From assembly GCA_015178975.1 (NCBI GenBank), contig WHVD01000139.1, forward strand, positions 1 to 64,000: a stretch of 64,000 nt of DNA. The letters are read 5' to 3'. The position numbers and the translations under genes are program-made. The notes beneath the pieces are model-generated. The model was not told the origin of the DNA and did not search any database. It saw nothing but the letters and a program-made list of their open reading frames with translations. The first letter of the stretch is position 1. The number at the start of each line of letters is the position of its first letter. Positions 1 to 36,113 of this stretch are shown here, in pieces. The stretch is from Hysterangium stoloniferum. Lineage: Eukaryota > Basidiomycota > Agaricomycetes > Hysterangiales > Hysterangiaceae.

Positions 1-2020
1 CTATTCTGCTACTGAATGGGAAGCATTAGCAGCAAAGGAGGGACTGGTCCACTTTCAACCTTTCATTGAAGGTGAACATGTCCTGCTCATTACGGACCAT
101 GCAGCTCTGCAATGGGCTAGATCTTACGAGAACACTAATCGTCGACTAGCTGCATGGGGGGCAATATATGCTGCATTTCCAGGTCTCGAGATTTTACATC
201 GAGCAGGGCGAGTTCACAGCAACGTAGATCCACTGTCCAGACTCCCTCGGGTACCAGCCTTCGTGAGCCCTATTAGAGATGATTTGCAGGCTATCACCTC
301 GACTTCTCTGGACAAGAATACTGAGGAAAAACTATGGAAAGACGAACCCGCTAAGAAGGCGGTCTTCTCTACCATACTCGATTCTATGGAGCCTTTTGGA
401 GTAACTCAAAAGGTCCGACGGTCAGAATGGGATATTCATAACGCAATAAGGAATGACCAGGAAGACGAGTCCGACTTCGCATTGCGTCATCCTCAGCTAC
501 TAATCAGCATCGAGGAGGGATATATAAAGAAATTTCTAGAGGGTTATTCGAAGGACCCGGTTTTCAGGAATCTCTATGCTTTAGATACCCCTTCACCCAA
601 CGCAGTTGTTACTCCTTCTCACTACTTCGTGGGAGCAAACCGACTCCTGTACTTTCGTGACTCGGACTGGGAAAAGTCGAGTCTGTGTACCCAGAACCAT
701 GATTACCTCGATTCTAAGGTTGGTGCATGATAACCCTTTTGAGGGAGCACACGCCGGAGGCCAGCGGTTGTTCAACCTGATGAAAGACCGGTTCTTTTGG
801 CCGAGAATGCTACAAGATTGCGTGTCGTACGCGCGTACCTGCGATATCTGCCAAAAAACCAAAGTCGATCGCACCGCTCGTCAAGGAGCCCTCAGACCGG
901 CTGACGTACCTTTTAGGCCATTCGAGGTAGTTTCTATGGACTTTATCACTGGACTACCCGATTCAGGAAAGGATTCGTATTCCGCAGTCTTCGTTGCTGT
1001 TGATAAATTGACGCGCTACGCTATTACAATACCTACCTTTTCGAACCTTACCGCTGAAGGATTCACACGAATATTTGTCAAACAGGTAGCAAGCCCCTTC
1101 GGACTGCCCTCTCGAATAATCTGTGACCGGGATAAGAGATGGACCTGCAGGTTTTGGCGGGAAGTCTGTAAGATCTATGGTACCACCCTTGCGGTATCTT
1201 CGGCTCATCATCCTCAAACGGATGGGCAAACGGAGAATATGAACGCGACCATAGAACAGATGCTTCGAGCCTATTGTGCCTCTGCTAAAGAAAGCTGGTC
1301 CCAGTGGATTGAGGTAGTTGTTCACGCATACAACTCGACTGTTCACAGTTCCACAAACTACGCCCCGGCCTTCTTATTAATGGGATACCTCCCAAGAGGA
1401 ATGTCTCGAGTTCTAGGAGGTGACGAGCCCCTAGTTCCTAGAGAACTATCAGACAGCCCTATGGCCGACCAATGGATCCTCAAGCTAGAAAATCATCAGC
1501 AGATGGCGCGGGATTCCATCGCTCGAGCCCAAGAGATTCAAGCACAAGCGTATAACAAGAAGCAAAGACCTGTAGAAGATATCTCTGAAGGAGACTTTGT
1601 ATTGGTGAACCCCCACTCCCTCGAACTGGTGGAAGTCAAGGGAACGGGGAAGAAACTGATACAAAGACGGATTGGACCATTCGAGGTCCTTGAGAAATTG
1701 AACTCTCAAGTATTTAGGCTTAAGATTCCCCGGAGTACCCTATGCATCCAGTCATTAATCGGGATCATCTGCGGAAATATCAACCCTCTCCTTCCAAGCT
1801 AGGTCCGAGACCCCAACTTGAGAACCTAAGAGAGTTGAAATCAGATCACGAAGAATATGAAGTCGAAGCTATTGTTGGACATAGGAAACAGCAAAATCGT
1901 CTGCTATTTAGGGTGCGCTGGAAAGGTTATGGACCCGAGGAGGATTCGTGGTTAAGCAGCACTGACCTTAGAAACGCTCCAGCACTTTTGAGGGCATACA
2001 AGGCGCTGTTCAACATTTAA
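1..2020 (+). pseudogene. pol 3' part: RNase H, integrase, chromodomain (copy A)
   Basis: Fossil pol fragment. The RNase H end carries the chromovirus signature around ITDHAALQWAR (about 90-120). The integrase zinc finger (His-His-Cys-Cys type) is seen as CDICQKTK near 840-862. The catalytic core is marked by SMDFITGLP (about 935), a second aspartate near 1125 (ICDRDKRW) and the glutamate in HHPQTDGQTEN (about 1210-1235). A C-terminal chromodomain with VRWKGYGPEEDSWL ends at 2020. Chromodomains of this clade bind methylated histone H3 and steer integration to heterochromatin, which fits the nesting seen here. It is broken in a few places. Confidence 0.88.
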
Positions 2021-2275
2021 CGGGATATATGCGCTCAAGGAATCATCTATTCCCTCTTTTTTTGTAACTTCCTTTCAGAAATATCTCAGTTATTCGCGGA
2101 CACATTTCCCCAAAACCCGGCCACAATTAATGAATTCTTTTAACAACCAACCGAGCGGAGTTTCAATTCAATATATATAAAAAAAAAAGTACACGTAAAT
2201 TCGCATAAATTTTCTTTATCTTTCACACCACGTCCTTCTCTCTATCTTCAACTTCACCACTTTTATCGCGTTATA

Positions 2276-4309
2276 ATGCTCCCTTTCCAACAAAACAAGC
2301 AAGTCCTCCCTAAGTTCAAAAAGGTCCAGCGAGCCCCGACAGCCAGTACATCCACGACCGGCGGGGGATTCATCACCCGCGTGCCTCGTACAGACAATGT
2401 CGAGAGCAATTGGGGTACCCAGGAATCAACCCCCCTTTCGACTTTCTCCTTTGGTGATGAGCTGGGGAAAAGTACTGGTACGGATTGGAGCAAGCCGTTA
2501 GGCCCCTCCATCAGGCCATCATCTGAGGAAGTCGCTGCTAGCATGCGGAAGCAGGAAATGTTCATGGAAGAACACAACACAAGGAGACTCGCCCGCAAAA
2601 GAGAAAGGCGTGCTGAGTATAGAAGTCAACAGGAGGCGAGGGGAGCAAGAGAAGGAGTCCCTTCCAAGCGGCAGCGGCGTGAGTACAGAGCGCAGTGCGG
2701 AAACAGAGCTTCAGTGCCGATCCTTCCCCCCGCGGGAGAGAAATGGGCCGACTTTGCGGAGACCGATGATAGCGAGGGTGGGACACCTTGTATTAGGACG
2801 ACGGGAACCAAGAGCTGGAAGGAGAAGGAGGGTACCATCTTTTACGACTGGGAGCTACTTCGACACATTAAGTTGCAACGCATAGTTCTCACCCGAGGGG
2901 ACGGTCAAACGCTGCCCCAACAAGAAAAGGGATACCGTAGGGGACCAATTGAGTTTTCCTCGGATGAGGATGAGGAGGAGGACGAGAACAGGAATGGCGT
3001 GTATAGTATCCGATCTTTGGGAGAGGATTGCCATGAAGGGTTCCTTCTCCCATCTGAAGTTCGTTTCGTAACCAGTGACCCCAACCAAAGACAAACGCGG
3101 AGACCGTCATCCAGAGTATGGAGGGGTCACCGCCCTAGTCAACAGTCAATGGAATGCGAACCTTCCACGATTCCGGTCCCACATCTCTCGCCAACGTCGA
3201 GGCTCCTTCCCATCATTCACCCTACACACACTCCCTCAGCCCCGATTCTAACGCCTCATTTACCTCCCTCTTCAAACGCTGTACCAGTCCCAACCTCACT
3301 TGGGATGTCGAGGCCCCCTCCCATCCTTCACCCGACACACACTCCCTCTGCCCAACGCAAACCTTCCCCGATTCTGGCACCTCGTCTCTCTCCCTCCCCG
3401 AAAGCTATACCGGTACCGACCCAACTTCCGCAGTCACCAGGTATCCCTCCCGACTCTCCGTATTCATATTGCGTGTCCTTGGGTAGCCCTATCCAGGACC
3501 TTTTACCAGAGCGAATGGATGTCGATTTAGACCCCCCTACACCGGATGTCATTGATCCCCTGGCAAGCAGAAAGGTGAAGGAGATGCAGAAAGCCACCAC
3601 TCCTCTCCGAGAACAATCCCCTATTCCCGTCCTTGACAGCCCGGTTCCCCTCACTGAGCCCGTATCCACAACTTTCTGGATGCGAGTAGCCGTCAACTAC
3701 CCTTCCGAACAGTTTCCTGTCAGAAGGGTGCTATCAGAGCTCGTGCCAGTACTTCAACAACCGGTCCTTCAAGGGAGCCTCAAGGGTTGTCGCGGTCTGG
3801 CTCCGTTGTCGGAGATAATGGAGGATTTCTATCTCTCCTTCGAGGATCTCGCAGAGGGGAAGAACTTTGCACGAGCAGCACAGGAGATTAAACTCTCTAT
3901 GTTCCAGCACATCATAGTGGAGCTTCACCGTCTGCCCCCAGACTCAGCGAATGTCCTCTCTATTGCTGGCTTAGTAGATTTACTCGAGGCCCTCGTCCTG
4001 ACGCCTCCCACAGAGACCACCGTGCAACCACACGTTCCTGCCCTACTGCCCGTGTCTTCGTTTCCCCTCCCCAATGCTCCTCTTCTCGTGCGGATTTCCG
4101 CTCCGCCGGTTAGTGTCCGCGCAGTCGTTCGTTGCAGAGAGAAAGCCTACAGACGATGGGCTGACTCCTTGTACAGGAATCCTAGTGATTTGACTCGGGC
4201 GAGAATAGCTGAATCCTTCAGAGTAAAAAGGGAACGATGGGGAAACCTCATTTTGGACCTTGGGGGATCTTCACAGGAAGCTTGGGGCGGCGTCCCAGAT
4301 GCTCTTTGA
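2276..4309 (+). CDS. Extra ORF in env position of Ty3 copy A (677 codons), function unknown
   Basis: This long ORF lies between the chromodomain end of pol (2020) and the 3' LTR (4347). I do not recognise its family. Visible parts are: a short N-terminal MLPFQQNKQ start; a charged Lys/Arg/Glu-rich stretch (about residues 95-135); a conserved block with WADFAETDDSEGGTPC and FYDW (about 155-190); an acidic stretch (SSDEDEEEDE, about 228-238); DCHEGFLLP near 252; a long Pro/Ser-rich linker (about 285-460); and a C-terminal folded-looking domain with NYPSEQFPVRRVL and ending LGGSSQEAWGGV. I see no signal peptide, membrane helix or zinc knuckle, so it is not an ordinary env. Related ORFs sit in the same place at 7450-9931, 16755-18706 and 28817-31124. 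Confidence 0.75.
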   Translation: MLPFQQNKQVLPKFKKVQRAPTASTSTTGGGFITRVPRTDNVESNWGTQESTPLSTFSFGDELGKSTGTDWSKPLGPSIRPSSEEVAASMRKQEMFMEEHNTRRLARKRERRAEYRSQQEARGAREGVPSKRQRREYRAQCGNRASVPILPPAGEKWADFAETDDSEGGTPCIRTTGTKSWKEKEGTIFYDWELLRHIKLQRIVLTRGDGQTLPQQEKGYRRGPIEFSSDEDEEEDENRNGVYSIRSLGEDCHEGFLLPSEVRFVTSDPNQRQTRRPSSRVWRGHRPSQQSMECEPSTIPVPHLSPTSRLLPIIHPTHTPSAPILTPHLPPSSNAVPVPTSLGMSRPPPILHPTHTPSAQRKPSPILAPRLSPSPKAIPVPTQLPQSPGIPPDSPYSYCVSLGSPIQDLLPERMDVDLDPPTPDVIDPLASRKVKEMQKATTPLREQSPIPVLDSPVPLTEPVSTTFWMRVAVNYPSEQFPVRRVLSELVPVLQQPVLQGSLKGCRGLAPLSEIMEDFYLSFEDLAEGKNFARAAQEIKLSMFQHIIVELHRLPPDSANVLSIAGLVDLLEALVLTPPTETTVQPHVPALLPVSSFPLPNAPLLVRISAPPVSVRAVVRCREKAYRRWADSLYRNPSDLTRARIAESFRVKRERWGNLILDLGGSSQEAWGGVPDAL

Positions 4310-4346
4310 CACCTAGTATAGCACATCCCTTCGAACTGGGGGGCAC

Positions 4347-4987
4347 TGTAAAGGGTATGCATATATGCATACCTGGACTAAGGAATAATAACCGGATTAT
4401 AGTACTTTATTATTTACCTTTTATTTTCTTTCTTTATATTCTTTCTATATTTCGAGCACACCTTGATTTGTAGTTCGAAGCTTTGTGTATACGTATGGGT
4501 GCCCTCGGCGCCAAACGATAGACAACTTTTTACCCAGCAGACACCACTTCGTAACGACTCAGACGTCGAATAACGAGAGGTGTCAAGGGTAGTATCTCAG
4601 CTACCATAAAGGTAGCATTCTCTAGTCTACTAATAGCCTTTTGAACTCGAACCGCTAAGGTCGAGTTCCGCTTTCAAGACTTTGCACTCGTCGACACCGT
4701 AGTCGACTCACGCTACTAATACTCTATCCTAAACACTCAGTCTTTAGCTGAGTATCTTTCTTATTTCTAGCTACTAGTTGTACCGTAAAGGGTCAACTCG
4801 TTATCTTACTGTTCTAAGCCGTCGCGAGCAACTATACAGTTGCTCTTGAAGCGTTCAGTGCGTTCTTATACTAGTACTAACAGTCTAGTAGTCTATAGTA
4901 TTGTACTGACGGTCAATACTCTCTAATAGTAGTTGAATAAACACTATTCTTCGTATATAGAGCGGTCAGAACCCACCACTCTTCACA
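4347..4987 (+). repeat. LTR, family A1 (3' LTR of copy A)
   Basis: Starts TGTAAAGGG and ends CTCTTCACA (TG..CA), 641 bp, directly after the polypurine tract. A perfect 20-bp palindrome (GGTATGCATA followed by its complement) lies at 4354-4373. Downstream follows a series of short hairpins, for example 4600-4616, 4643-4668, 4690-4707, 4735-4753, 4826-4845 and 4898-4919. The bases after the LTR are CATGG; the matching 5' flank is outside the window. Confidence 0.92.
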
Positions 4988-5762
4988 CATGGATTCCAGG
5001 ACATTCTTCGTGAAAGGGACCAGAGGGTGTTCGTGTTGGCTCATCAAACCCATTGAGCAATTCCGCCATCATCCTGTTACATCTCTCCAGGTTGCGCATC
5101 AATCTTGACCTGAGAGTGAAGTAGGCGAAACACACATTCGAGGGTTTACCGTATATGGATTCCTTCAACATTTGAATGTATCTGAAATCCGTATCGACCC
5201 TTGGCATGATGTGGTTCCCTCCGAGCAATACATGCATAATCTGTAGCAGATCATCATGTACACAAAGTAAATCGGAGGGCAGAATGAACAGTTCCATCTT
5301 GATACTCGCTATTCCCTTTTCTCGGAAAAACATCACTTCGTTTGACCACTTTGGGATCAACTTTGTTACCTCGTCGAGAGTTCCAGGCCAAGTGAATAAA
5401 TCGTGTGCTGATATGATGCCATGATACCGACCTAGCCAAACTGCTACTGTTGCAGGCGTGGATGGGTATCTAGTCTTGTAATTCTTCGTGGCAGCGACAA
5501 CCTTATCTCTCGAAACTCGAGAAGTGTAGTAGGAGCTCCACTTCACATTGACAGGCTCCGAATAAAGTAGTTGGCCATGATGCTCGAGCATAACTTGTCT
5601 CGGCGGGAAGACCAGGGTATCCTTTATGAAGATGCGAGCATTTTGCCTTTCCAAGGGACTCGACTGCTCGAAGTTCGAGTTACCTTCCATTTGACCAGAT
5701 TCGCAACGCTCAGCGTGCGAGGAGTTCCAGATAGCCTTTTGCAAAGTTGCGAATGTTGACAC
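4983..5762 (-). CDS. Hypothetical protein, 259 codons, cut by an LTR
   Basis: An uninterrupted reading frame of 259 codons occupies the gap between LTR A1 (ends 4987) and LTR C (starts 5845). It starts MSTFATLQKAIWNSSH. I recognise no family; the sequence looks globular (many aromatic residues, no low complexity, no membrane helix). Its stop codon lies just inside the LTR terminus, so the natural C-terminus was probably lost when the element inserted. It could be a fragment of a host gene stranded among repeats, or part of an unrecognised element. It occurs once in the window. Whether it is expressed cannot be judged. Confidence 0.4.
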   Translation of the reverse strand: MSTFATLQKAIWNSSHAERCESGQMEGNSNFEQSSPLERQNARIFIKDTLVFPPRQVMLEHHGQLLYSEPVNVKWSSYYTSRVSRDKVVAATKNYKTRYPSTPATVAVWLGRYHGIISAHDLFTWPGTLDEVTKLIPKWSNEVMFFREKGIASIKMELFILPSDLLCVHDDLLQIMHVLLGGNHIMPRVDTDFRYIQMLKESIYGKPSNVCFAYFTLRSRLMRNLERCNRMMAELLNGFDEPTRTPSGPFHEECPGIHV

Positions 5763-5844
5763 CTCGCAGCTGTATAGTTAGAATTTCGTATTTGAATATA
5801 AGATTTTCTTCATAGGGAAAGTACGGTCCGGCCCGGATCACCAC

Positions 5845-6318
5845 TGTGAAGAGTGGAAGAAGTTCAGACTGTTCTATATACAAAGAAATGAGTAGAAGAG
5901 GAGGATATTGACCTATTCGGTGCAATATAAGAGAAAGTGAGAGAAAGAGCACGAGATGACGAAGGAGTCAACGAGTGTGATGGTTCGAGTGGAGGCCTCG
6001 ACTATTACAGTTCGAGGTCAGAAGTGTTTAGTAGTTCAGATATTGCTACTTATATAGTAGCTGACACGTTACCCTGATCACTGCTCGTAGTAGACCTAGT
6101 TTGTGTCTTACGAGTGGTGGTTCTTGGGTTAAAGTGTGTCTGAGTTCTAATTGGTGCTGAGTGCACCCACAAGTATACACAATGCTTCGAACTAATGAAA
6201 TATGCGATATTCGAAGAATATGAAAGATAGTAAAATATGAATAGAATATGTAAAATATAAATGAAATAAAAGGAGTGTTTTACCACAATGAAACTGTGGT
6301 AAAAGCATACTCCTCACA
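5845..6318 (-). repeat. LTR, family C, minus orientation
   Basis: 474 bp, TGTGAAGAGTGG..CTCCTCACA as read on the plus strand. The terminal hairpin with arms TTTTACCACA/TGTGGTAAAA is present near the right end. The flanks (ACCAC left, GCTAG right) do not match, so this copy has probably exchanged flanks by recombination, or one side was lost. Confidence 0.88.
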
Positions 6319-6549
6319 GCTAGGTACTCTACCATGACACCTCCCACATCCCGAATTCCCTCCATAGCTTGAGGTACTAGAACTCCCAGATGAATTACTA
6401 GGAGGTCCTCCTGATGGCAGAAAAGGGTTGGAGGAGATTGGCAGGGAATGGCGAGGATCGACTGGATTCAGCGATCCTCGACCAGCAACCTGACCAGCTA
6501 TACCCTCAGTGAATGCAGTGGAGAAAGACGGTCGACCCCTGTTGGCGAC
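6319..6549 (-). pseudogene. Ty3 gag fragment
   Basis: Short minus-strand piece of a Ty3 Gag, recognised by SNPFLPSGGPPSNSSGSS and GRPSFSTAFTEGIAG, which match the longer gag fragment at 31793-32479. It is a fossil remnant bounded on both sides by solo LTRs. Confidence 0.7.
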
Positions 6550-7180
6550 TGTGAAGAGTGGTAGAAGTTCTAACCGTTCTATATACGAAGAATATCGACC
6601 GTTGAAGTACGATACCATGATGTATTGACTGTCTAAGTCTAATACGGACCGAATGCGTATTGACTACTTAGTTCAATACGGTAGAGAGAAGTAGCTATCT
6701 AAAGTAAGGTAGATAGCTAGAACAAATAAGCAGAATCGACTGGTTAAGTGCGATTCTGGACAACTGCTCGAGTGCAAGTAGAGTAGTTAGAGAGTCGAAT
6801 AATAGAGTAGTGTGGATGTAGTCCATGCGAGTTGAGATAGGGATTGAGTTTCGACTGATACAGTTCGAAACTCAGTTTGAATGAGTAGCTAAAGCCCGTC
6901 TGTGATGGTTGAGACGATACACCAATCACAACTTACAGGACACTAACGGGTGTCTGGGTAAGTCGTGGTTGCGGTGTAAAAAGTGTCTGAGTTCTAAACT
7001 ACGGGCGCTAGAATACATAAGTCTGGCATGTGTGTGCCCACAAGAGTCGATGTACCGCATACATAGGTCGTCGAACTAATTATAGGTATAATGAAAGAGA
7101 GAAAATAGAAATAATAAAGGAAATATAGTAAGAGCACATCCGACTATATTTCCTGAGTGTATTTCACCATACCTCTCACA
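6550..7180 (-). repeat. LTR, family B, minus orientation
   Basis: 631 bp. The left flank is GCGAC (in gag) and the right flank is CTTGG (in the chromodomain end of another pol), so the two flanks come from different genes and do not form a target-site duplication. This is best explained by recombination between two family B LTRs at different insertion sites. Confidence 0.9.
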
Positions 7181-7449
7181 CTTGGTTAAACGGCAATGAC
7201 CTTCGTAACGCTCCCGCTCTCCTTAGAGCTTACAAGACTATTTATCGAATTTAATGATCATTTCACATCCTTACGACGACAACGCTGTTTATCTACTTCT
7301 AGCTCTACCCTCCCACCTTCTTCCCCCTCGGCCTTTCACTTCAATAACCGAGTGGAGCTTGAAATTAATATAAAATACGTAAATTCGCTAAAGAAAATTT
7401 TATTCCCCCTATCTCTTCCCTCCACGTCAACCTCTCTAATCAGTATACT

Positions 7450-9931
7450 ATGTTGCAGGAGCAGCAACCCAAACCCAAATTCCCCAACTTCAAAAGAATA
7501 CCGCGACCTCAACCTATTAATACCTCTACCACGCCGTCTCGTACTGAACAAGTCGAGCACTCCACGAACAACTCTGGAACGCCTTTGCCAATACCCTCTG
7601 CTGTGCAGGGCGACATCGTGGGAATGTCCACCAACTCGGGGAACGGGACCGCCTTTACTCCATACGCTCCTCTTCCCAGACCCCGATTTCCCAATTTCAA
7701 AAGAATACCTCGACCTCAAACTACAGTTCCTTCTGCCCCATCACCTCGAACAGAAACTGTCGAGCGCGTGGAGGAGACCTTGTCATCCACGAATCCTATG
7801 CAGACGGACTCTATTTCGAAAGCTGCACCATGGTCCTCTAATACTTGGGGGGCTCCCTCAGGAGCATGGAGCGAAACCCCACCACCTTCTCGTAGTATTT
7901 TCCCTTCTACCGAAGAGGAGATCAAAAGGAAATGGCAGTCTGAGGCTTTCTCGTCACAGGTTCAGGAGGAATTGAAAACGCTTAAACGGAAGAGGAGAGA
8001 GGAGTACTTGGAAGGACAGCGGAGGATGGGGGCTAGGGATAATGTCCCTTCAAGGCGGACACGGCAGGAATGGAGGAGAATGGAAGGGCACGATAATCCT
8101 TCAATCATCGCTCCCCCTTCGGGTCATAAATGGATGGATTTCGCTGAAATGGATTGCAGCCACGGGGGCACGCCATGTGTTCGGAGTGTAGGACAAAAAA
8201 GTAGGAAAGGAAAAGACGGGGTCACCTTCTACGATTGGGGACAAAGTACAAAGGATCAAATTACAAAGTATTGCATTGCGACGTGGAGATGGAGTTGCAC
8301 TACCTCCCAGACCCCCTTCACAACGTGGACCTCAGGAATGGACCTACCGGATGGGGCCCGGTGATCTTTCATCTGACTCGGAGGACGACCAATCTCAATA
8401 CCCCGCCTACAATAGCAAGTACCTCGGTGCTGACTGCCATGAAGGTTTCCTACTCCCTGACAACATTCACTTCTTCACGAGTGATCCTAACCAATGACGA
8501 AAGCTACCAACTTCCGTCAGAGTTTGGAGAGGGTATCGTCCAGCAGACTCTGCGACCCCATCCAGTTCCTCTCATCTCCCTCCACCTCCGCCGGTCTCTT
8601 CCGTACCCACATTACAGCGCTTTACACCCTTTTCAGAGTTACCAGGAAGTCTTGTACCATCCGCCGAGCTGCCTTCTCTTCCCCCTATACCACTACCCCT
8701 CCCCTTCGCAGGACATTCCCTGATATCACCGTCCTCATCCATACCCAAGCCTTCTCCAGCACTGCAGTCAATCTCACCCCTTCGCAGGTCACCTGACCCT
8801 CTCGTCGCCTCCCATTCTACTCCGATGCCTTTAGTCCCTGCAGTGTCTAACATTCCCCTCACTTCCTTGACAACTCGGAGTCCACCGCCCGCCTCTCCCT
8901 GCTCCCCTTGCATTTCTCTGGGAAGCCCCATTCAGCATCCTAACGATACATTAATGGATATTGATCACCCTATCCTGGAAGTTCTCGCAATGCCTATGGA
9001 GGAAGTCCTCGAGGTGCCTCTCTCAGCCACAGACGTCTCCAAAGAACCCCCCCCGGCAATGGAAGTCTTTGAGGAGCCTCCCCCCTTAAGCGAAAAAGCA
9101 AAAGGGAAACGAAGAACCGATACTCAAGCCGACGAGCCCCTTGTCATTGACCCCCCCCCGGCCCACCCCATTCGCAGCCCCCCGCCACAGCCATCCTCTC
9201 CCCTCCACTCTGAGGATACGGCTGGCCCCTCCCGTCCCTTCCAGTCAAGTTGGATGCGCCTGTCCATTAATTACCCCTCCGACATCTTTACCGTGGGATG
9301 CACATTAACGCAATTGGGACCAACCCTGCGGCACCCCCTTCTTAAAGGGCATATCCAGGGGTATAGTGGGTCTCTCACGTTGTCGGACCGCATGAGTGCG
9401 TTTTATCTACACGTCAACGACCCTAAGGAACAGCTGCGTTTAGTGGAGGATATCGAACGGGTGGAACTCTCCATGTTTCGGTCCTTACTTGTCAACTCTT
9501 CTTGTGTTCTTCCTGACCACACACCAATCCACTCTGCAGTGGACCTCGTTGACTTTCTGGAGCAACTGTTGCCAGATTCGGACACCTCGAGAGGAATCCC
9601 CCCTGGGGGAGACACGAGCTCCACACCGCTCATCACTCCTACCCCGCCATCACTACACCCTCGACCCCCTCTCATTGCCCGTATTACTGACGCTTCCGCT
9701 GACCGCGTTCGCGCCATAATCCGAATGCGCCAGAAGGCCTACGGTCATTGGGTCTCATCGATCCAAAAACTGGATGGGTTGACATCCGCCACTGACGCTT
9801 CGAAGTGGGAGGACATCGCTCTTTCCTTTCGTGCCAAGCGTCTCGCCTGGGGCAACGCTATCCTACACCTTGGGGGTTCATCGCAGGACGCATGGGGAGG
9901 AGTTCCAAGCGTCCTTCGACATCTTCTTTGA
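7450..9931 (+). pseudogene. Extra env-position ORF of the family B Ty3 element (broken)
   Basis: Diverged homologue of the ORF at 2276-4309. Shared blocks are the MLQEQQPKPKFPNFKRIPR start (compare NKQVLPKFKKV), KWMDFAEMDCSHGGTPC, FYDW, DCHEGFLLP, NYPSDIFTVGCTL and the terminus LGGSSQDAWGGV. The Pro/Ser-rich middle has drifted strongly while the blocks are kept, which suggests the protein was under selection before decay. The copy is broken (a small number of breaks). Confidence 0.75.
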
Positions 9932-14165: not shown

Positions 14166-14432
14166 TCACCGCTCAGTGTAGACCTAGTTTGTGTCTTATA
14201 AGTGGTGGTGCTTGGGTAAAAGTGTGTCTGAGTTCCATTTGGTGCCAAGTGCACCCACAAGTATACACAGAGCTTCAAACTAATGAAATGGTGCAATATT
14301 CAAAGAATATAAAGGATAGAAAAATATGAATAAAATGTGTAAAATATAAATAAAATAAAAGGAGTGTTTTACCACAATGAAACTGTGGTAAAAGCATACT
14401 CCTCACACCTGTGGGTACATAGACTCTTGTTG

Positions 14433-15074
14433 TAAAGGGTATGCATATATGCATACCTGGACTAAGGAATAATAACTGGATTATAGTACTTTATTATTTA
14501 CCTTTTATTTTCTTTCTTTATATTCTTTCTATATTTCGAGCACACCTTGATTTCGTAGTTCGAAGCTTTGTGTATACGTATGGGTGCTCTCGGCGCCAAA
14601 AGAGACAGACAACTTTTTACCCAGCAGACACCACCTCGTAACGACTCAGACGTCGAATAGCGAGAGGTGTCAAGGGTAGTATCTCAGCTACCATAAGGGT
14701 AGCACTCTCTAGTCTACTAATAGCCTTTTGAACTCGAACCGCTAAGGTCGAGTTCCGGTTTCAAGACTTTGCGCTCGTCGACATTGTAGTCGACTCGCGC
14801 TACTATTACTCTATCCTAGATACTCAGTCTTTAGCTGAGTATCTTACTTATTTCTAGCTACTAGTTGTACCGTAAAAGGTCAACTCATTATCTTACTGTT
14901 CTAAGCCGTCGCGAGCAACTATACAGTTGCTCTTGAGGCGTGTAGTTCGTTCTTATACTAGTACTAACAGTCTAGTAGTCTATAGTATTGTACTGACGGT
15001 CAACACTCTCTAATAGTAGTTGAATAAACACTATTCTTCGTATATTGAGCGGTCAGAATCCACCACTCTTCACA
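14433..15074 (+). repeat. LTR, family A1, left hinge of an inversion
   Basis: 642 bp, TGTAAAGGG..CTTCACA. The left flank is CTTGT and the right flank CTAAC, so they do not match each other. They match, in reverse complement, the left and right flanks of the opposed A1 LTR at 23776-24419. The LTR therefore sits at the edge of an inverted block. Confidence 0.93.
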
Positions 15075-16754: not shown

Positions 16755-18706
16755 ATGCTCCCGTTCCAACAAAACAAGCAAGTCCTCCCTAAGTTCAAAG
16801 AGGTCCCACGGGCCCCGATAGCCAGTACATCCACGACTGGTGGGGGATTCATCACCTGCACGCCTCATACAGACAATGTCGAGAGCAATTGGAAAACCTT
16901 AGGACCACCCCCATCGACTTTCTCCTTTGGTGCTGAGCCGAGAGGAGATAGTGGTACTGATTGGAGTAAGCCGTTAGGACACTCCTTCAGACCGTCATCA
17001 GAAGAAGTCACTGCTACTATGCGGAGGCAGGAAACGTTTATGGAAGAACATAACACAAGGAGGCTCACCCGCAAAAGAGAAAGACGCACTGAGTATAGAA
17101 GTCACCAGGAGGCAAGGGGAGCAAGAGAAGTCACCAGGAGGCAAGGGGAGCAAGAGAAGGAGTCCCCTCCAAGCGACAGTGGCGTGAGGACAGAGTACGA
17201 TTCGGAAACAGAGCTTCCGCGCTGATCCTTCCCCCCCCCCAGGAGAGAAATGGGCCGACTTTGCAGAGACAGATGATAGCGAGGGTGGGACGCCTTGCAT
17301 TAGAACGACGGGAACCAAGAGCTGGAAGGAAAAGGAGGGTACCATCTTCTATGACTGGGAACTATGTACTTCGGCGTATTAAGTTGTGAAGAATAATCCT
17401 TACCCGAGGGGATGGTCAAGCACTGTCCACACGAGAAAAGGGATATCGTAGGGGACCAATCGACTTTTCCTCGGATGAGGATGGGGAGGAAGACGAGGAT
17501 AGGAATGATGCGTATAGTGTCCGATATCTGGGAGAGGATTGTCACGAAGGGTTCCTCCTCCCCTCGAAAGTTCGCTTCGTAACCAGCGACCCCAACCAAC
17601 AACAGACACGGAAACCATCATCCAAAGTATGGAGGGGTCATCACCCTAGTCAACCGTCACAGGAACGCAAACCTTCCCCAATTCCAGTCCCACGCCATTC
17701 GCCAATGTCGAGGCCCCCTCCCATCCTCCACCCTGTGCACACTCCCTCAGCCCCAATTCTAGTGCCTCGTCTACCCCCTTCCCCAAAGGCTATACCGATC
17801 CCTACCCCACTTCCACCGTCACTGGCTATCCCTCCCGACTCTCCATTTTCATATTGCATGTCCTTAGGTAGCCCTATCCACGACCTTCCACAAGAGCGAA
17901 TGGACATCGATTTGGACCCTCTTACACTGGATGTTATCATTTCCACGACGAGTGGAAAAGCAAAGGAGATACAGAAGGCCACCACTCCTCTCCCAGAGCG
18001 ATCCCCTATTCCCGTCCCTGACAGCCCACTTCCCCCCACCAAGCTCATCTCCACCACCTTCTGGACGCAAGTATCTGTCAACTACCCTTCCGAACAGTTT
18101 CCTGTCAGAAGGGTACTATCGCAGCTAGTGCCAGTACTTCAGCAACCGGTCCTTCAAGGGAGCCTTAAGGGTTGTCACAGTCTTGCTCCGTTGTCTGAGA
18201 TAATGGAGGACTTCTATCTCTCCTTTGAGGATCCCGCAGAGTGGGAGAACTTTGCACGAGCAGCTCGGGAGATTAAACTCTCTATGTTCTGGCATATCAT
18301 TGTGGAACCCCACCCTCTGCCCCCAGACTCAGCGAGTGTCCTCTCTATTGCTGGCCTTGTAGATTTACTCGAGGCCCTTGTCCTGATGCTTCCCACAGAG
18401 ACCACTACGCAGCCACATGTTCCTGCCCCGCTACCTGCGTCTTCATCTCCCCTTCCCAATGCTCCTCTTCTCGTGCAGATTTCCGCTCCGCTGGTTAGTG
18501 TCCGTGCAGTCATTCGTAGCAGAGAGAAGGCCTACAGACACTGGACCAACTCCTTGCACAGGAATTCTAGTGATTTGGCTCGGGTGAGAATAGCCGAGTC
18601 CTTCAGAGTAAAAAGGGAACAATGGGGAAACATCATTTTGGACCTTGGGGGATCCTCACAGGAAGCTTGGGGTGGCGTTGCAGATGCTCTTCAACACCTT
18701 GTATAG
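16755..18706 (+). pseudogene. Extra env-position ORF, copy C (broken)
   Basis: Third copy of the unknown ORF: starts MLPFQQNKQVLPKFKEV, contains WADFAETDDSEGGTPC and DCHEGFLLP, and ends LGGSSQEAWGGV at about 18,690. The C-terminal half (17705-18706) is an open stretch of 333 codons. There are a few breaks in the N-terminal half. The element belongs to LTR subfamily A2. Confidence 0.8.
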
Positions 18707-18731: not shown

Positions 18732-20006
18732 TGTGTGTGAAGAGTGGTAGAAGTTCTAACCATTCTATATACAAAGAATATCGACCGTTTAGGTACGATA
18801 CCACGATGTATTGACTGTCTAAGTCTAATACAGACTGAACGTGTATTGACTACTTAGTTCAATACGGTAGAGAGAAGTAGCTATCTAAAGTAAGGTAGAT
18901 AGCTAGAACGAATAAGTAGAATCGACTGTTAAGTGCGATTCTGGATGACTGCTCAAGTGCAAGTAGAGTAGTTAGAGAGTTGAATAATAGAGTAGCGTGG
19001 ATGTAGTCCATGCAGGTTGAGATAAGGATTGAGTTTCGACTGGTACAGTTCAAAACTCAGATTGAGTGAGTAGCTAAAGCCCATCTGTGATGGTCGAGAT
19101 GATACACCAATCACAACTTACAGGACACTAACAGGTGTCTGGGTAAGTCGTGGTTGCGGTGTAAAAAGTGTCTGAGTTCTAAACTACGGGTGCTAGAATA
19201 CATAAGTCTGGCATGTGTGCGCCCACAAGAGTCGATGTACCGCATACATAGGTCGTCGAACTAATTATAGATATAATAAAAGAGAGAAAACAGAAATAAT
19301 AAAGGAAATATAGTAAGAGCTCATCCGACTATATTTCCTGAGTGTATTTTGCCATACCTCTCACACTGTGAAGGGTATGCATATATCATGATTGGACTGT
19401 GGAATAATATACATATTATAGTACTTTATTATCTAGTTTTCGTTTCTTTTCTTTAACTCTCTATATCTTTCAAGCATACCCGTATTTCTTAGTTCAAAGC
19501 CTTGTGTATATCTATGGGCGCTCTCAGTGCCAAATGACAGACACCTTTTTACCCAGCAGACACCACCTCGTAACGACCTGACGTCGAATAGCGAGAGGTG
19601 TCCAGGGTAATATCTCAGCTACCTATAAGGTAGTGTTCTCTTGCATACTAATAGTCTTTGGACTCGAACCGCAAAGGTCAAGTCCCACTCCCAAGTCTTC
19701 GTGCTCATCGACACTATAGTCGACTCGCGCTGCTATATCTCTACTCTAGATAGTCAGTCTTTTGCTGAATATCTCTCTTACTTCTAGCTACAAGTTGTAC
19801 CATAAGGGTCAACTCTTTCTTTTCTTCTGTCCTCGTCATCACAAGCAACTGTACAGTTGCTCTTGTGACGTGTAGTGCGACTCTCTACTAGTACTATTAG
19901 TCTAGTAATCTACGGTATTGTACTGGACGGTCAATACTTAATAATAGTAGTTGAATAAATACTATTCTTTGTATATCGAGCGGTCAGAATCTATCGACTC
20001 TTCACA
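18732..20006 (+). repeat. LTR, family A2 (3' LTR of copy C), split by solo LTR B
   Basis: Starts TGTG at 18732, is interrupted after four bases, and resumes at 19371 as AAGGGTATGCATATATCATG to end TCTTCACA at 20006. Net length is 640 bp. A2 lacks the 20-bp palindrome of A1 but keeps the hairpin series, with changed stems. Confidence 0.9.
18736..19365 (-). repeat. Solo LTR, family B, inserted 4 bp inside LTR A2
   Basis: 630 bp, flanked by CTGTG at 18731-18735 and 19366-19370. The insertion point lies at the polypurine tract/LTR border of copy C. Confidence 0.93.
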
Positions 20007-23775: not shown

Positions 23776-24419
23776 TGTGAAGAGTGGTGGATTCTGACCG
23801 CTCAATATACGAAGAATAGTGTTTATTCAACTACTATTAGAGAGTGATGACCGTCAGTACAATACTATAGACTACTAGACTGTTAGTACTAGTATAAGAA
23901 CGAACTACATGCCTCAAGAGCAACTGTATAGTTGCTCGCGACGGCTTAGAACAGTAAGATAATGAGTTGACCTTTTACGGTACAACTAGTAGCTAGAAAT
24001 AAGTAAGATACTCAGCTAAAGACTGAGTATCTAGGATAGAGTAATAGTAGCGCGAGTCGACTACAATGTCGACGAGCGCAAAGTCTTGAAACCGGAACTC
24101 GACCTTAGCGGTTCGAGTTCAAAAGGCTATTAGTAGACTAGAGAGTGCTACCCTTATGGTAGCTGAGATACTACCCTTGACACCTCTCGCTATTCAACGT
24201 CTGAGTCGTTACGAGGTGGTGTCTGCTGGGTAAAAAGTTGTCTGTCTCTTTTGGCGCCGAGAGCGCCTATACGTATACACAAAGCTTCGAACTACGAAAT
24301 CAAGGTGTGCTCGAAATATAGAAAGAATATAAAGAAAGAAAATAAAAGGTAAATAATAAAGTACTATAATCCAGTTATTATTCCTTAGTCCAGGTATGCA
24401 TATATGCATACCCTTTACA
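23776..24419 (-). repeat. LTR, family A1, right hinge of the inversion
   Basis: 644 bp. Flanks are ACAAG on the left and GTTAG on the right. These are the reverse complements of the left (CTTGT) and right (CTAAC) flanks of the A1 LTR at 14433-15074. Confidence 0.93.
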
Positions 24420-25959: not shown

Positions 25960-26597
25960 TGTGAAGGGTATGCATATATCATGATTGGACTGTGGAATAA
26001 TACATATATTATAGTATTATATTATTTAGTTCTTACTCTTTTTCCCTAACTCTCTAGATCTTCGAGCATACCCGTATTTCTTAGTTCGAAGTCTTGTGTA
26101 TATCTATGGGCGCTCTCAGCGCTAAATGGAGACAACTTTTTACCCAGCAGACACCACTTCGTAACGACTCAGACGTCGAATAACGAGAGGTGTCAAGGGT
26201 AGTATCTCAGCTACCATAAAGGTAGCATTCTCTAGTCTACTAATAGCCTTTTGAACTCGAACCGCTAAGGTCGAGTTCTGCTTTCAAGACTTTGCGCTCG
26301 TCGACACCGTAGTCGACTCACGCTACTAATACTCTATCCTAGACACTCAGTCTTTAGCTGAGTATCTTTCTTATTTCTAGCTACTAGTTGTACCGTAAAA
26401 GGTCAACTCGTTATCTTACTGTGCTAAGCCGTCATGAGCAACTATACAGTTGCTCTTGAGGCGTGCAGCGTGTTCTTATACTAGTACTAACAGTCTAGTA
26501 GTCTATAGTATTGTACTGACGGTCAATACTCTCTAATAGTAGTTGAATAAACACTATTCTTCGTATATAGAGCGGTCAGAATCCACCACTCTTCACA
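25960..26597 (+). repeat. Chimeric LTR: A2 at the left, A1 at the right
   Basis: 638 bp. The left third follows A2 (TGTGAAGGG, CATATATCATGATTGG). From about 26130 the sequence follows A1 almost base for base with the LTR at 4347-4987. Flanks do not match (AAGGT left, ACCCG right). ACCCG is the pol site that continues copy D. Confidence 0.88.
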
Positions 26598-27402: not shown

Positions 27403-27830
27403 TGTCACAACCGTCACATGTCACGTATTGTCACAAACATTCAAAGGTAACTTTCAACAACTCTTCGACCTATCGAATTCAACTCGACAAACCGAACATT
27501 AATCGACACCATCGGATCTCTTTCGACATGTCTCATTTCGACATCATATATGATTTCATAATTAGTTCATAACATAGTCATAACGATACGACGAAAAGCA
27601 TAAAAGGGCTACGAAAGGAACAAGGGAAGTCAGTCGAAATATCTGTATATTAGTGACATTAGTAATCTACTTTGTCGTACTTCTTCGACAAATACTTCCA
27701 TGAGTTCTCGCGACTGGTAATAGCCTCTTACTTCATTGACAGGGCGAATATATACTTCGTCGAACGAGGCTTTCGAGTTCGATTAGTAGAATATTATTCG
27801 ACTTTATTGAAGAATAATCAATTCGTGACA
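27403..27830 (+). repeat. Solo LTR, family D, in copy D integrase (TSD ATACC)
   Basis: 428 bp, TGTCACAACC..CGTGACA, flanked by ATACC at 27398-27402 and 27831-27835. Closely similar to the copy at 23210-23639. Confidence 0.93.
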
Positions 27831-28467: not shown

Positions 28468-30522
28468 CGGGATATATGCGCTCAAGGAATCATCTATTCC
28501 CTCTCTTTTGTAACTTCCTTTCAGAAATATCTCAGTTATTCAGTGAGCCATCTCATTGGCTTTTATTCTTTTTCATTTTTCTATCCCTTCGGTCGATTGG
28601 GACAACCATTAATTGGCAGCGGACACATTTCCCCAAAACCCGGCCACAATTAATGAATTTTATTTAACGACCAACCGAGCGGAGTTTCAATTCAATATAT
28701 ATAAAAAAAAAGTACATGTAAATTCGCATAAATTTTCTTTATCTTTCACACCACGTCCTTCACCTATCTACAGCCCTTCCCTCTATCTTCAACTTCACCA
28801 CTTTTATCGTGCTATAATGCTCCCTTTCCAACAAAACAAGCAAGTCCTCCCTAAGTTCAAAAAGGTCCCGTGAGCCCTGACAGCCAGTACATCCACGACC
28901 GGCAGGGGATTCATCACCTGCATGCCTCGTACAGACAATGTCGAGAGCAATTGGGGTACCCAAGAATCAACCCCCCCGTCAACTTTCTCCTTTGGTGATG
29001 AGCCGGGGAAAAATACCGGTATGGATTGGAGCAAGCCGTTAGGCCCCTCCGTCAGACCGTCATCTGAGGAAGTCGCTGCTAGCATGCGGAAGCAGGAAAT
29101 GTTTATGGAAGAACACAACGCAAGGAGACTCACCCGCAAAAGAGAAAGGCGTGCTGAGTACAGAAGTCAACAGGAGGCGAGGGGAGCAAGAGAAGGAGTC
29201 CCCTCCAAGCGGCAGCGGCGTGAGTACAGAGCGCAATTCGGAAACAGAGCTTCCGTGCCGATCCTTCCCCCCACGGGAGAGAAATGGGCCGACTTCGCGG
29301 AGACCGATGATAGTGAGGGTGGGACGCCTTGTATTAGGACGACGGGAACCAAGAGCTGGAAGGAGAAGGAGGGTACCATCTTTTACGACTGGGAGCTACT
29401 TCGACGCATTAAGTTGCAACGCATAGTTCTTACCCGAGGGGATGGTCAAACGTTGCCCCAACAAGAAAAGGGATACCGTAGGGGACCAATTGAGTTTTCC
29501 TCGGACGAGGATGAGGAGGAGGACGAGAACAGGAATGGCGTGTATAGCATCCGATCTCTGGGAGAGGATTGCCACGAAGGGTTCCTTCTCCCATCTAAAG
29601 TTCGCTTCATAACCAGCGACCCCAACCAAAGACAAATGTGGAGACCGTCATCCAGAGTATGGAGGGGTCACCGCCCTAGTCAACAGTCACTGGAACGTGA
29701 ACCTTCCACGATTCCAGTCCCACATCTCTCGCCAACGTCGAGGCCCCTTCCCATCATTCACCCTACACACACTCCTTCAGCCCCGATTATAACGCCTCAT
29801 TTACCTCCCTTTTCAAAAGCTGTACCGGTCCCAACCTCACTTGGGATGTCGAGGCCCCCTCCCATCCTCCACCCGGCACACACTCCCTCAGCTCAACGCG
29901 AACCTTCCCCGATTCTGGCGCCTCATCTCTCTCCCTCCCCAAAAGCTATACCGGTACCGACCCAACTTCCGCCGTCACCGGGTATCCCTCCCGACTCTCC
30001 GTATTCATATTGCATGTCCTTGGGTAGCCCTATCCAGGACCTTCCACCAGAGCGAATGGATGTCGATTTGGACCCCCCTACACCGGACGTCATCGATCCC
30101 ATGGCAAGCAGAAAGGCGAAGGAGATGCAGAAAGCCACCACTCCTCTCCGAGAACAATCCCCTATTCCCGTCCTTGACAGCCCGGTTCCCCTCGCTGAGC
30201 CCATATCCACAACTTTCTGGATGCGAGTAGCTGTCAACTACCCTTCCGAACAGTTTCCTGTCAGAAGGGTACTATCACAGCTCGTGCCAGTACTTCAGCA
30301 ACCGGTCCTTCAAGGGAGCCTCAAGGGTTGTCGCGGTCTGGCTCCGTTGTCGGAGGTAATGGAGGATTTCTATCTCTCCTTCGAGGATCTCGCAGAGGGG
30401 AAGAACTTTGCACGAGCAGTACAGGAGATTAAACTCTCTATGTTCCAGCACATCATAGTGGAGCTTCACTGTCTGCCCCCAGACTCAGCGAATGTCCTCT
30501 CTATTGCTGGCTTAGTAGATTT

Positions 30523-30778
30523 GTTAGAAATGGGAAAATACAATATCTATATGTGACAGACTGTTATAAGACCCAGGTTTGCCATCAGTTATATAAGCTG
30601 TTATAAGAGCACAAGTTGGCATCATAAGTCCTTATATATATATATATGTATATATAATCCATCATATAATACTAGACTATAGGTCCAGTAGCTCAGTGGT
30701 TAAGAGCACCTGCATATAAAGCCAGGAGGTCCTTGGTTCAATCCCAGGCTGGGTCAATTCTTTTCTATGCCTTTAACA
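30523..30778 (+). mobile_element. tRNA-containing insertion (SINE-like), 256 bp
   Basis: Interrupts the ORF of copy D, with AGATTT repeated at 30517-30522 and 30779-30784. The first about 160 bp are A/T-rich and include a TA microsatellite (about 30632-30655). The tRNA-like unit comes last (30682-30755), followed by about 20 bp. Having the tRNA part at the 3' side is the reverse of the usual SINE order. Confidence 0.75.
30682..30755 (+). tRNA. tRNA-like sequence inside a mobile insertion (likely pseudo)
   Basis: Box A (TAGCTCAGTGGTT) and box B (GGTTCAATCCC) are in normal order. A cloverleaf can be drawn: acceptor GGTCCAG/CTGGGTC with two G-U pairs, D arm GCTC/GAGC, T arm CTTGG/CCAGG with loop TTCAATC. 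The anticodon stem CCTGC/GCCAGG needs a bulged C and the loop ATATAAA would read ATA, which is odd. Probably a retroposed tRNA relative rather than a working tRNA gene. Confidence 0.6.
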
Positions 30779-31149: not shown

Positions 31150-31792
31150 TGTAAAGGGTATGCATATATGCATACCTGGACTAAGGAATAATAGCTGGAT
31201 TATAGTACTTTATTATTTACCTTTTATTTTCTTTCTTTATATTCTTTCTATATTTCGAGCACACCTTGATTTTGTAGTTCGAAGCTTTGTGTATACGTAT
31301 GGGCGCTCTCGGCGCCAAATGAGACAGACAACTTTTACCCAGCAGACACCACCTCGTAACGACTCAGACGTCGAATAGCGAGAGGTGTCAAGGGTAGTAT
31401 CTCAGCTACCATAAGGGTAGCATTCTCTAGTCTACTAATAGCCTTTTGGACTTGAACCGCTAAGGTCGAGTTCCGCTTTCAAGACTTTGCACTCGTCGAC
31501 ACTGTAGTCGACTCACACTACTATTACTCTATCCTAGACACTCAGTCTTTAGCTGAGTATCTTACTTATTTCTAGCTACTAGTTGTACCGTAAAAGGTCG
31601 ACTCATTATCTTACTGTTCTAAGCCGTCACGAGCAACTATACAGTTGCTCTTGAGGCGTGCAGTGCGTTCTTATACTAGTACTAACAGTCTAGTAGTCTA
31701 TAGTATTGTACTGACGGTCAATACTCTCTAATAGTAGTTGAATAAACACTATTCTTCGTATATTGAGCGGTCAGAATCCACCACTCTTCGCA
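31150..31792 (+). repeat. LTR, family A1 (3' LTR of copy D)
   Basis: 643 bp, directly after the polypurine tract. The 20-bp palindrome is present at its left end. Right flank CAAGT lies inside a gag fragment on the minus strand. Confidence 0.92.
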
Positions 31793-33292: not shown

Positions 33293-33875
33293 TTACTATT
33301 ATTAAGTATTGACTGTCCAGTACAATACCGTAGATTACTAGACTAATAGTACTAGTAGAGAGTCGCACTACACGTCACAAGAACAACTGTACAGTTGCTC
33401 GTGATGACAAGGACAGAAGAAAAGAAGAGTTGACCCTTACAGTACAACTTGTAGCTAGAAGTAAGAGAGATATTCAGTGAAAGACTGAATATCTAGGGTA
33501 GAGATATAGCAGCGTGAGTCAACTATAGTGTCAATGAGCGCGAAGACTTGGGAGTAGGACTCGACCTTCGCGGTTCGAGTCCAAAGACTATTAGTATGCA
33601 AGAGAACACTACCTTATAGGTAGCTGAGATATTACCCTGGACACCTCTCGCTGTTCGACATCAGGTCGTTACGAGGTGGTGTCTGCTGGGTAAAAAGGTG
33701 TCTGTCATTTGGCGCCGAGAGCGCCCATAGATATACACAAGACTTTGAACTAAAAAATATGGGTATGCTCGAAAGATATAGAGAGTTAAAGAAATGAAAT
33801 GAAAACTAGATAATAAAGTACTATAATATTTATATTATTCCACAGTCCAATCATGATATATGCATACTCTTCACA
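33293..33875 (-). repeat. Partial LTR, family A2
   Basis: Matches A2 in reverse complement and ends ATACTCTTCACA at 33875. Its left end is incomplete. Directly followed by a second A2 LTR in the same orientation. Confidence 0.85.
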
Positions 33876-34501
33876 GATTCTGACCGCTCGATGTACGAAG
33901 AATAGTATTTATTCAACTACTATTATTAAGTATTGACTGTCCAGTACAATACAGTAGATGACTAGACTGATAGTACTAGTAGAGAGACACACTACACATC
34001 ACAAGAGCAACTGTACAGTTGCTTGTGACGACGAGGACAGGAGAAAAGAAGAGTTGACCTTTACAGTACAACTTGTAGCTAGAAGTAAGAAAGATAGTCA
34101 GCGAAAGACTGAATATCAGAGGTAGAGATATAGCAGCACAAATCGACTATAGTGTCGATGAGCGCAAAGACTTGAGAGTGGGACTCGACCTTCACGGTTC
34201 GAGTCCAAAGATTATTAGTATGCAAGAAGTCACTACCTTTATAGGTAGCTGAGACATTACCCTTGACACCTCTCACTATTCAACATCGGGGTCATTACAA
34301 GGTGGTGTCTGCTGGGTAAAAAAGTGTCTGTCATTTGGCGCCGAGAGTGCCCATAGGTATACACAAGACTTCAAACTAAGAAATACGGGTATGCTCGAAA
34401 GATATAGAGAGTTAAAGAAAAGAAACGAAAACTAGATAATAAAGTACTATAATATGTATATTATTCCACAGTCCAATCATGATATATGCATACCCTTCAC
34501 A
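33876..34501 (-). repeat. LTR, family A2, tandem second copy
   Basis: Begins GATTCTGACCGCTCG and ends TACCCTTCACA at 34501, in the same orientation as the preceding copy. The head-to-tail pair without intervening sequence suggests unequal exchange between LTRs. Confidence 0.85.
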
Positions 34502-35517: not shown

Positions 35518-35737
35518 GATCCTAACACTTTTGTCTTCAGACTTTAGACCTTAACATTCACTCACTAAAAACAGTATTGTACTTATGTAGATGGTCAATA
35601 CATCTTTTATTATACTTGAGAGTCAATATTCTTTGTACACAGAGTGGTAATTCACACAACTCTTCACATTAACACACTTTAACAAAAACAAAATTCATTT
35701 CTTAACATTCATCTCCTTGAAAGGCATTCACACCACA
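35518..35737. other. Old LTR-like end and unassigned sequence
   Basis: The part up to about 35,669 ends ACTCTTCACA and has GGTCAATACATC and GAGTCAATATTC words like the LTRs upstream, so it is probably a very old LTR end. No gene seen. Confidence 0.4.
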
Positions 35738-36113
35738 CACTAGAGGCACCCCAAGGTTTTTGGAGTTTGATAACCATCTGAAAATCTTAATATTTGGCCA
35801 AATTTTCTAAGAATTCTTTGAACTGATAAATTGTTTGAAAATTTTAAGTTTTAGAATGATTTTCCAAAATGGAAAATCATGTGTGAAAATCTAAATAATT
35901 TGTATCAAAAAACTCTGACTAATGATGTTTCCTTAGATTTCCTGATACAAATATTTAAAGTTTTCAGATATGATTTTCCACTTTGGAAAATCCTATTAAA
36001 ACTTAATATTTTCAAACAATTTATCAGTTCAAAGAATACTTAGAAAATTTGGTCAAATAGTAGGATTTTTTGGAAGGTTTTCCAACTCCAAAAATCTTGG
36101 AGTGTCTCCAGTG
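35738..36113. mobile_element. CACTA-like MITE, 376 bp, nearly all inverted repeat
   Basis: The left end CACTAGAGGCACCCCAAG pairs with the right end, whose complement reads CACTGGAGACACTCCAAG. The arms stay complementary for about 150-160 bp each, with roughly 10-15 percent mismatch by eye. ACA flanks both sides (35735-35737 and 36114-36116), which fits the 3-bp duplication and CACTA/CACTG ends of the CMC/EnSpm group. There is no ORF, so it is non-autonomous. Confidence 0.8.

Follow-up and report, generated by a model that had tools for sequence, protein, structure and literature searches.

The long terminal repeats (LTRs) of several related retrotransposon families in Hysterangium stoloniferum carry a genuine array of short hairpins, many of which follow one plan on the sense strand: a variable stem, G, a single bulged base in the 5′ arm, ACY, a loop, RGT, C and the stem again. 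Among the kinds of explanation for this array, RNA folding that serves packaging or a similar function has the best support, and the data presented here partly support it. For the more specific reading, that the element transcript carries the array as a docking RNA, with Gag as its probable partner and packaging as its probable role, I judge the chances to be about even.

The window is the whole stretch of DNA analysed here, namely 64 kb from the start of a contig of 219,744 bases; the genome comprises 111 Mb in 554 contigs. Positions 0–35.7 kb are mostly a nest of LTR elements, and the remainder is mostly genes. A reading frame for CCR4-NOT subunit 1 is located at 57205–58968; it has 427 relatives, and among the 120 matches listed Hericium alpestre (61% identity) is the sole organism named. 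A long AT-rich imperfect inverted repeat at 35800–36100 resembles, by eye, a separate mobile element. Within the nest, the LTR A1 is found at 98–100% identity in at least 40 full-length places of the genome, A1 itself counted, a number that is a lower bound scored among 1,282 candidates. The LTR families related to A1 are A2/A3/A4, C, B/B2, F and G, and the following copies are relevant here:

4347–4987, plus strand: A1, LTR of family A, 641 bp, TG..CA, the 3′ LTR of the element spanning 1–4346
14431–15074, plus strand: further A LTR with array
25960–26597, plus strand: further A LTR with array
31150–31792, plus strand: further A LTR with array
23776–24419, minus strand: further A LTR with array
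19367–20006, plus strand: LTR of the A2 subfamily with array, 80% identical to A1
33294–34501, minus strand: two A2/A3 LTRs with array, back to back
6550–7182, minus strand (sense is minus): B LTR
5845–6318, minus strand (sense is minus): C LTR
ending at 35668, plus strand: F LTR remnant, which carries hairpin H9 at 35574–35601

The A, B and C LTRs, oriented by their common ends, start with TGTRA and finish with CTTCACA. All three families have TG..CA termini, with a few LTR copies showing altered end bases, and 5-bp target duplications are present at many solo copies; in the table of termini, some B rows begin one or two bases early and the A3 rows end short, owing to the query used. A primer binding site (PBS, GTGGTGATCCGGGCC..) follows the 5′ LTRs in A, B and C, and a purine tract (CTGGGGGGCAC) precedes the 3′ LTRs in A and B. 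The element bearing A1 encodes an integrase (606–1802) and a further reading frame (ORF2, 2276–4309), both in the plus direction. The order reverse transcriptase, RNase H, integrase was assembled from two copies, with RVT_1 and RNase H found in locus L110 (1724–5887) and the integrase in the window; L110 positions 5728–5827 overlap window positions 1–100 at 99%. One A element has the first ATG of its gag frame ∼76 nt past the 5′ LTR. This gag frame gave no Pfam match, and a weak zinc knuckle match, below the Pfam cut-off, was found in the pol reading frame. By its termini, target duplications, PBS, purine tract and domain order, the carrier is a Ty3/gypsy LTR retrotransposon.

The first-pass annotation had named seven hairpins in A1, and all seven are present, each no more than one base from where it had been placed. 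Two more, H8 and H10, were absent from it. The hairpins of A1 (plus strand), of the B and C LTRs (minus strand) and of the F remnant are as follows:

4600–4616, plus: H2, no bulge, ACC..GGT border
4643–4668, plus: H3, plan member, bulge A, arms covarying across A, C, B and F
4690–4707, plus: H4, no bulge
4735–4753, plus: H5, no bulge, without ACY border
4776–4798, plus: H6, plan member, bulge T
4826–4845, plus: H7, no bulge, ACT..AGT border
4869–4890, plus: H8, plan member, bulge T
4897–4920, plus: H9, plan member, bulge T
4925–4948, plus: H10, bulge geometry of the plan, with GTT..AAC in place of ACY..RGT
6846–6873, 6732–6757 and 6692–6719, minus: H3, H6 and a long hairpin of the B LTR
6656–6680, 6622–6645 and 6593–6614, minus: H7, H9 and H10 of the B LTR
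6045–6061, 5994–6019 and 5905–5928, minus: H2 (no bulge), H3 and H9 of the C LTR
35574–35601, plus: H9 of the F remnant

The array occupies the side of the LTR that faces the PBS and gag. Hairpin centres in A1 are spaced by 43–48.5 nt across the first seven hairpins, and by 28–29 nt thereafter. Counting hairpins with a perfect stem of at least 6 and a loop of 3–14, A1 possesses nine, compared to 2.06 ± 1.39 in dinucleotide shuffles, and none of 200 shuffles reaches nine; the excess over shuffled LTRs on which the first-pass claim depended is therefore present. The nine consist of H2–H5, H7–H10 and a palindrome at 4354–4373, outside the array, while H6 is excluded by its outer stem of 5 bp. For the 20 copies of A, B and C in the window, each compared to 200 shuffles, the observed count is reached by no shuffle in 11 copies, by 1–5 shuffles in eight, and by 13 in one. 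In the A2–A4 copies, H7 is seen by eye to lie at the centre of a longer stem, such as CATCACAAGCAACT..AGTTGCTCTTGTGATG, the 3′ side of which has a 2-nt bulge.

The same plan had been claimed for families A, B, C and E; it holds for the first three, but not for E (27404–27830), where only three simple hairpins are present, a count reached by 65 of 500 shuffles, and where a search for a bulged hairpin found none. This TCGAC-rich region is an insertion of the form TGTCAC...GTGACA, and is perhaps an unrelated solo LTR. It had also been stated that most loops open with ACY and close with RGT. These borders are indeed common, but they act as base pairs rather than as part of the loop, with C-G and T-A (in some copies A-T) alternating.

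The feature overlooked in the first-pass annotation is the single unpaired base of the 5′ arm, between the stem and ACY. The plan that includes it is followed by H3, H6, H8 and H9 of A1 and by many hairpins of B, C, F and G, all oriented by gag-pol. Counting against one uniform plan, H2, H4, H5 and H7 have no bulge, and the H10 of family A has no ACY..RGT. Across 128 LTR copies, a bulge of 1 nt at a distance of three pairs from the loop is found 412 times on the sense 5′ arm and 29 times on the 3′ arm, in a count where copies are not independent and one hairpin may enter twice; unbulged hairpins, counted separately in the same copies, number 227. Shuffling single copies gives roughly equal counts for the two sides, and no side bias is seen in the gene half of the window (13 versus 15) or in 13.5 kb of internal element DNA following the PBS, from nine loci (11 versus 12). 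A strict version of the plan, with G-N-AC and GTC fixed, occurs 358 times in sense and five times in antisense within the LTR sequence covered by the mask. Elsewhere it has 23 matches, by eye mostly in LTR families that this mask does not cover; it is absent from 27 kb of genes, and occurs three times in 1.08 Mb of shuffled sequence.

The families had been described as sharing structure without sharing sequence, which is too strong: A and C LTRs are 68–71% identical over 198–310 bp, the last ∼43 bp are common to A, B and C, and sequence alone is enough to align four hairpin positions in A, B and F. H3, H6, H9 and H10 are old hairpins, common to the A, B and F lineages (H3 and H9 in C), and the others are lineage-specific. 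Further LTRs, grouped as lineage G (L102–L105, L107 and L109), possess some or all of the plan hairpins H3, H6 and H9, and in L102 and L104 the PBS after the LTR is the same as in the other families. In a sequence-only alignment of 126 LTRs, comparing 21 lineages of less than 84% identity, the stem and ACY columns are one base apart on the 5′ side and adjacent on the 3′ side in 80 of the 80 cells with letters (H3, H6, H8, H9 and H10, with 25 of 105 cells set aside for gaps). This is a measure of alignment spacing, not of pairing, in which gap costs favour the result and some H9 rows shift the third inner base; it is supportive, in that it backs a conserved geometry without proving pairing. The bulge base itself is A, T, C or G across these lineages.

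A covariance model was built from 19 family A hairpins, picked to fit the plan, some of them from the window. At E ≤ 5 it gave 84 matches in the window, with 73 in LTRs in sense, none in LTRs in antisense, and 11 outside LTRs; none lies past 35.7 kb. The sense matches comprise 32 in A LTRs and 41 in the B, C and F LTRs, which contributed nothing to the model. On 28 loci that belong to other families or are old relics, the same model gave 48 matches at E ≤ 1, both LTR strands pooled, the best at 3.5e-05. Rfam 15 gave no match for window positions 4200–7300 at E ≤ 1. Genome-wide, the pattern TATTG-N-ACY-N3-9-RGT-CAATA occurs 3,037 times, compared to once for its reversed control. The same core without the bulge is found at three sites (six rows, since this pattern is its own reverse complement), with one forward and one reverse occurrence for the control, and with two bulged bases it is not found in the genome. 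A second subtype, TTTCG-N-ACY..RGT-CGAAA, occurs 447 times, with none for the control. These subtype counts mirror copy number as well as constraint.

Covariation across LTR copies, the check proposed in the first-pass annotation, is supported by matched-arm tests, but not by the strictest test. Between lineages of less than 84% identity, own arms pair in 79.7% of cells, compared to 74.1% when arms are swapped between lineages, and none of 5,000 permutations is as high; with Watson–Crick pairs only, the values are 73.4% and 64.0%. H5 was omitted from this test, and H10 was defined on a B copy. For individual hairpins, with G·U included, H3, H7 and H10 are each matched by none of 5,000 permutations, followed by H6 (p = 0.0022) and H2 (0.010); the signal is weaker for H9 (0.097), H4 (0.15) and H8 (1.0, from five lineages). 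The 5′ stems of H3 include GAACTCG, GGCCTCG, AGTTTCG, AGCTTCA and GACCTCA, and most of them have a matching partner.

Pair counts were obtained for three hairpins on sequences that were not chosen by pairing, with the proviso that relatedness can inflate measures other than double changes. On this basis, H3 has 85.0% of cells paired (76.0% shuffled, at most 47.8% slid), H6 92.2% (88.1% shuffled) and H10 80.1% (74.8% shuffled), while 0, 1 and 0 shuffles in 500, respectively, attain their covariation scores, which exceed every slid version. Double-change pairs are not above shuffles in these three hairpins, the observed number being reached by 186, 361 and 102 of 500. In a phylogeny-aware test similar to R-scape, on 74 LTRs thinned from the 126, 92 pairs were proposed, 3 of them in dropped columns, and one of 89 structure pairs was significant at E < 0.05; slid sets gave 0/78, 0/84, 1/87, 0/89, 1/89 and 0/89. 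For family A alone, the best of 83,436 pairs has E = 0.17 and is not a stem pair. I read this outcome as reflecting few independent events, yet it is a failed test.

Stem sites also evolve slowly. On internal branches of family A (54 sequences) they show 0.38 changes per site compared to 1.27 elsewhere, or 3.3-fold slower, and on terminal branches 0.76 compared to 1.21, or 1.6-fold slower. Slow stems on internal branches are expected if the amplifying lineage keeps its stems while copies that are dead degenerate. G·U pairs are no more frequent than A·C (64 versus 77 cells in the 21 lineages, 12 versus 12 on internal branches), a result that does not favour RNA over DNA. In all seven array segments tested, the sense RNA folds more stably than 60 shuffles (z −2.1 to −5.7), and its folds are more extreme than the antisense in six of these, by about one standard deviation; in the segment from the C LTR at 5845, the two are equal (z −2.09 and −2.17). 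The upstream LTR halves, too, fold more stably than their shuffles (z −3.2 to −4.6 in sense, and −6.4 for B in antisense); fold energy thus does not single out the array, and is weak evidence.

Several other explanations can account for part of these observations. The ACY..RGT sequences could lie in half-sites (TYGACY) arranged as dyads in double-stranded DNA, and be recognized by a DNA-binding protein of the host or the element. Conservation of the core TYG..ACY/RGTCRA in sequence as well as structure, and the lack of preference for G·U pairs, agree with this. A dyad site has equal halves at a fixed spacing, whereas here the left half has one extra nucleotide and the right half none, the half-sites are separated by loops of 3–9, bulged sites outnumber true dyads of the same core as reported above, and the outer arms covary though their sequence is free. 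Since the bulge breaks the inverted-repeat symmetry and follows the sense strand, the spacing varies, and own arms match best, I favour RNA over DNA, and consider DNA sites improbable. More improbable still is that the arms covary without selection, as a mutational artefact. Imperfect inverted repeats are corrected to perfect ones when reverse transcription switches templates, and such correction would explain paired changes without G·U intermediates. It should however also erase the bulge, the spacing of which is kept in every scored cell, and the stems evolve slower than the spacers, not faster, with a conserved core sequence. The least probable reading is that of a functionless relic, in which one ancestral hairpin unit is repeated in tandem at ∼45 nt spacing and the repeats are alike through common descent only; the regular spacing of the first seven A1 hairpins, their common core and the non-significant phylogeny-aware test all suit it, but it is difficult to reconcile with arm covariation across lineages of less than 84% identity, and with slow stem evolution on internal branches.

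The remaining alternatives accept an RNA structure. A Rev/CTE-like export signal or a TAR-like expression signal, acting through a host protein or the ORF2 product, draws on the same structural evidence as docking, and is unlikely though well worth considering: ORF2 is intact at 2276–4309, and a 39% identical relative is located in 8825–9931, beside a B LTR. ORF2 was nevertheless rejected as the binding partner, as it has no Pfam match, a search with its residues 420–677 found no homologue, its model is poor (mean pLDDT 50), and it has no link to RNA binding. A dimer signal and a source of small RNAs, both suggested in the first-pass annotation, are not favoured. The loops vary in sequence and length, which argues against dimerisation through kissing loops; as for small RNAs, hairpins processed by Dicer have long stems of ∼20 bp or more, while those described here are mostly of 8–13 bp, inner 3 bp included.

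I therefore return to a docking RNA. The other proposal of the first-pass annotation, RNA folding as a packaging-type signal, gains from the bulge side being tied to the sense strand and from matched-arm covariation, set against the failed phylogeny-aware test. The array would act in cis as an RNA structure, carried by the sense transcripts of a large Ty3/gypsy-type clade and transcribed as part of U3, R or U5. Each plan hairpin would present a G-C pair, one free nucleotide in the 5′ arm, the pairs A-U and C-G plus a third, and a short loop. Repetition, and one geometry in many hairpins, suggest one protein bound several times, and with repeats upstream of the PBS and gag, the array may form a multivalent platform for a single RNA-binding protein. 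The likeliest such protein is the element's own Gag, or its nucleocapsid region, a candidate because the families share the PBS and presumably their replication machinery. Its likeliest role would be selective packaging of the genomic RNA, with dimerisation or the start of reverse transcription.

Plan hairpins are also present outside LTRs. The 22 kb of non-LTR DNA in the window contain eight (outer stem ≥ 4), compared to 0.17 per strand in mono-shuffles:

659, 2385 and its copy 28926, 7538, 7745 and 5658: six plan hairpins on coding strands
13159 and 13404, minus strand: plan hairpins in unassigned DNA, the former perhaps, by eye, in an old LTR remnant

These dispersed hairpins in element bodies are only a lead. 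The body of L110 has one sense plan hairpin (2797), and one in antisense (6580) lies beyond the matched part of the element; L110 also has a sense plan hairpin in an LTR (7424) and a weak antisense match to the model (5563–5609, E 0.06). No plan hairpin is found in the element body of L111. The hairpin at 659–683 is a perfect one within the integrase reading frame, and an inverted copy near 24445 retains it, with a loop one base shorter and one stem base changed. A pattern search for integrase relatives in viral contigs gave eight matches, none of which was confirmed.

ORF2 is a post-integrase frame of up to 677 amino acids, with relatives at 8825–9931, 17705–18706 and 28922–30556. Two of the four frames were scanned against Pfam, without a match, and the C-terminal part of ORF2 is predicted to be helical in a low-confidence model. 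By eye, its coding-strand plan hairpins at 2385–2404, 7538–7557 and 7745–7764 encode RTDNVE, RTEQVE and RTETVE, with a third inner pair of A-T, T-A and A-T, at third codon positions.

To my knowledge, apart from those of yeast elements and retroviruses, the RNA signals of LTR elements have received little study. The coat-protein operators of the RNA phages MS2 and Qbeta consist of a lower stem of largely free sequence, a bulged base in the 5′ arm, 2–4 pairs and a small loop, and require a particular bulge base and loop. The plan hairpins resemble them in the lower stem, single 5′-arm bulge, short inner pairing and small loop, though no homology is claimed; they differ in that bulge base and loops vary, and in that several are present per LTR, so they are not operators of the MS2 type, although they may work similarly. 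HIV TAR and RRE are bulged hairpins of a retroelement transcript that are read by protein; TAR is a single hairpin with a 3-nt bulge, whereas an array with 1-nt bulges is found here. The double-hairpin elements of fungal mitochondria are short repeated hairpins that are themselves mobile, whereas those described here are at homologous LTR places and have covarying arms.

The genomic RNAs of Ty1 and Ty3, like the transcript proposed here, have cis-acting sequences in or beside the LTRs, among them structures of the 5′ leader for packaging, dimerisation and priming. Minimal Ty1 requires 380 nt of its 5′ end and 357 nt of its 3′ end (PMC4974528). The array differs from Ty1 in that the available passages of that paper describe no repeated array of one bulged hairpin; in its text, the terms hairpin and packaging signal are absent, and stem-loop appears solely in the reference list. 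No hairpin array in LTRs was found in the literature covered, mainly listings and the beginnings of abstracts, with subscription papers mostly outside it. While cis-acting retroelement RNA is already known, the bulged-array form is thus new as far as could be seen.

A broader reading is that the array represents a new class of RNA motif, borne by LTRs, set by geometry (exactly one unpaired 5′-arm base, three pairs from the loop) and read multiply by a dedicated element protein. I hold this tentatively, as a possibility more doubtful than plausible. If true, competing families could differ in sequence and still retain the platform, and the single sense-strand plan hairpins in integrase, gag-like and ORF2 coding sequence could be additional contacts for that protein along the genome. 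In either case, the array is a candidate signal that can be read from DNA alone, with thousands of natural variants in one genome, such that its rules are directly testable. It would offer a way to study RNA selection by fungal Ty3/gypsy elements, and the means by which a shared platform persists in many families of one genome.
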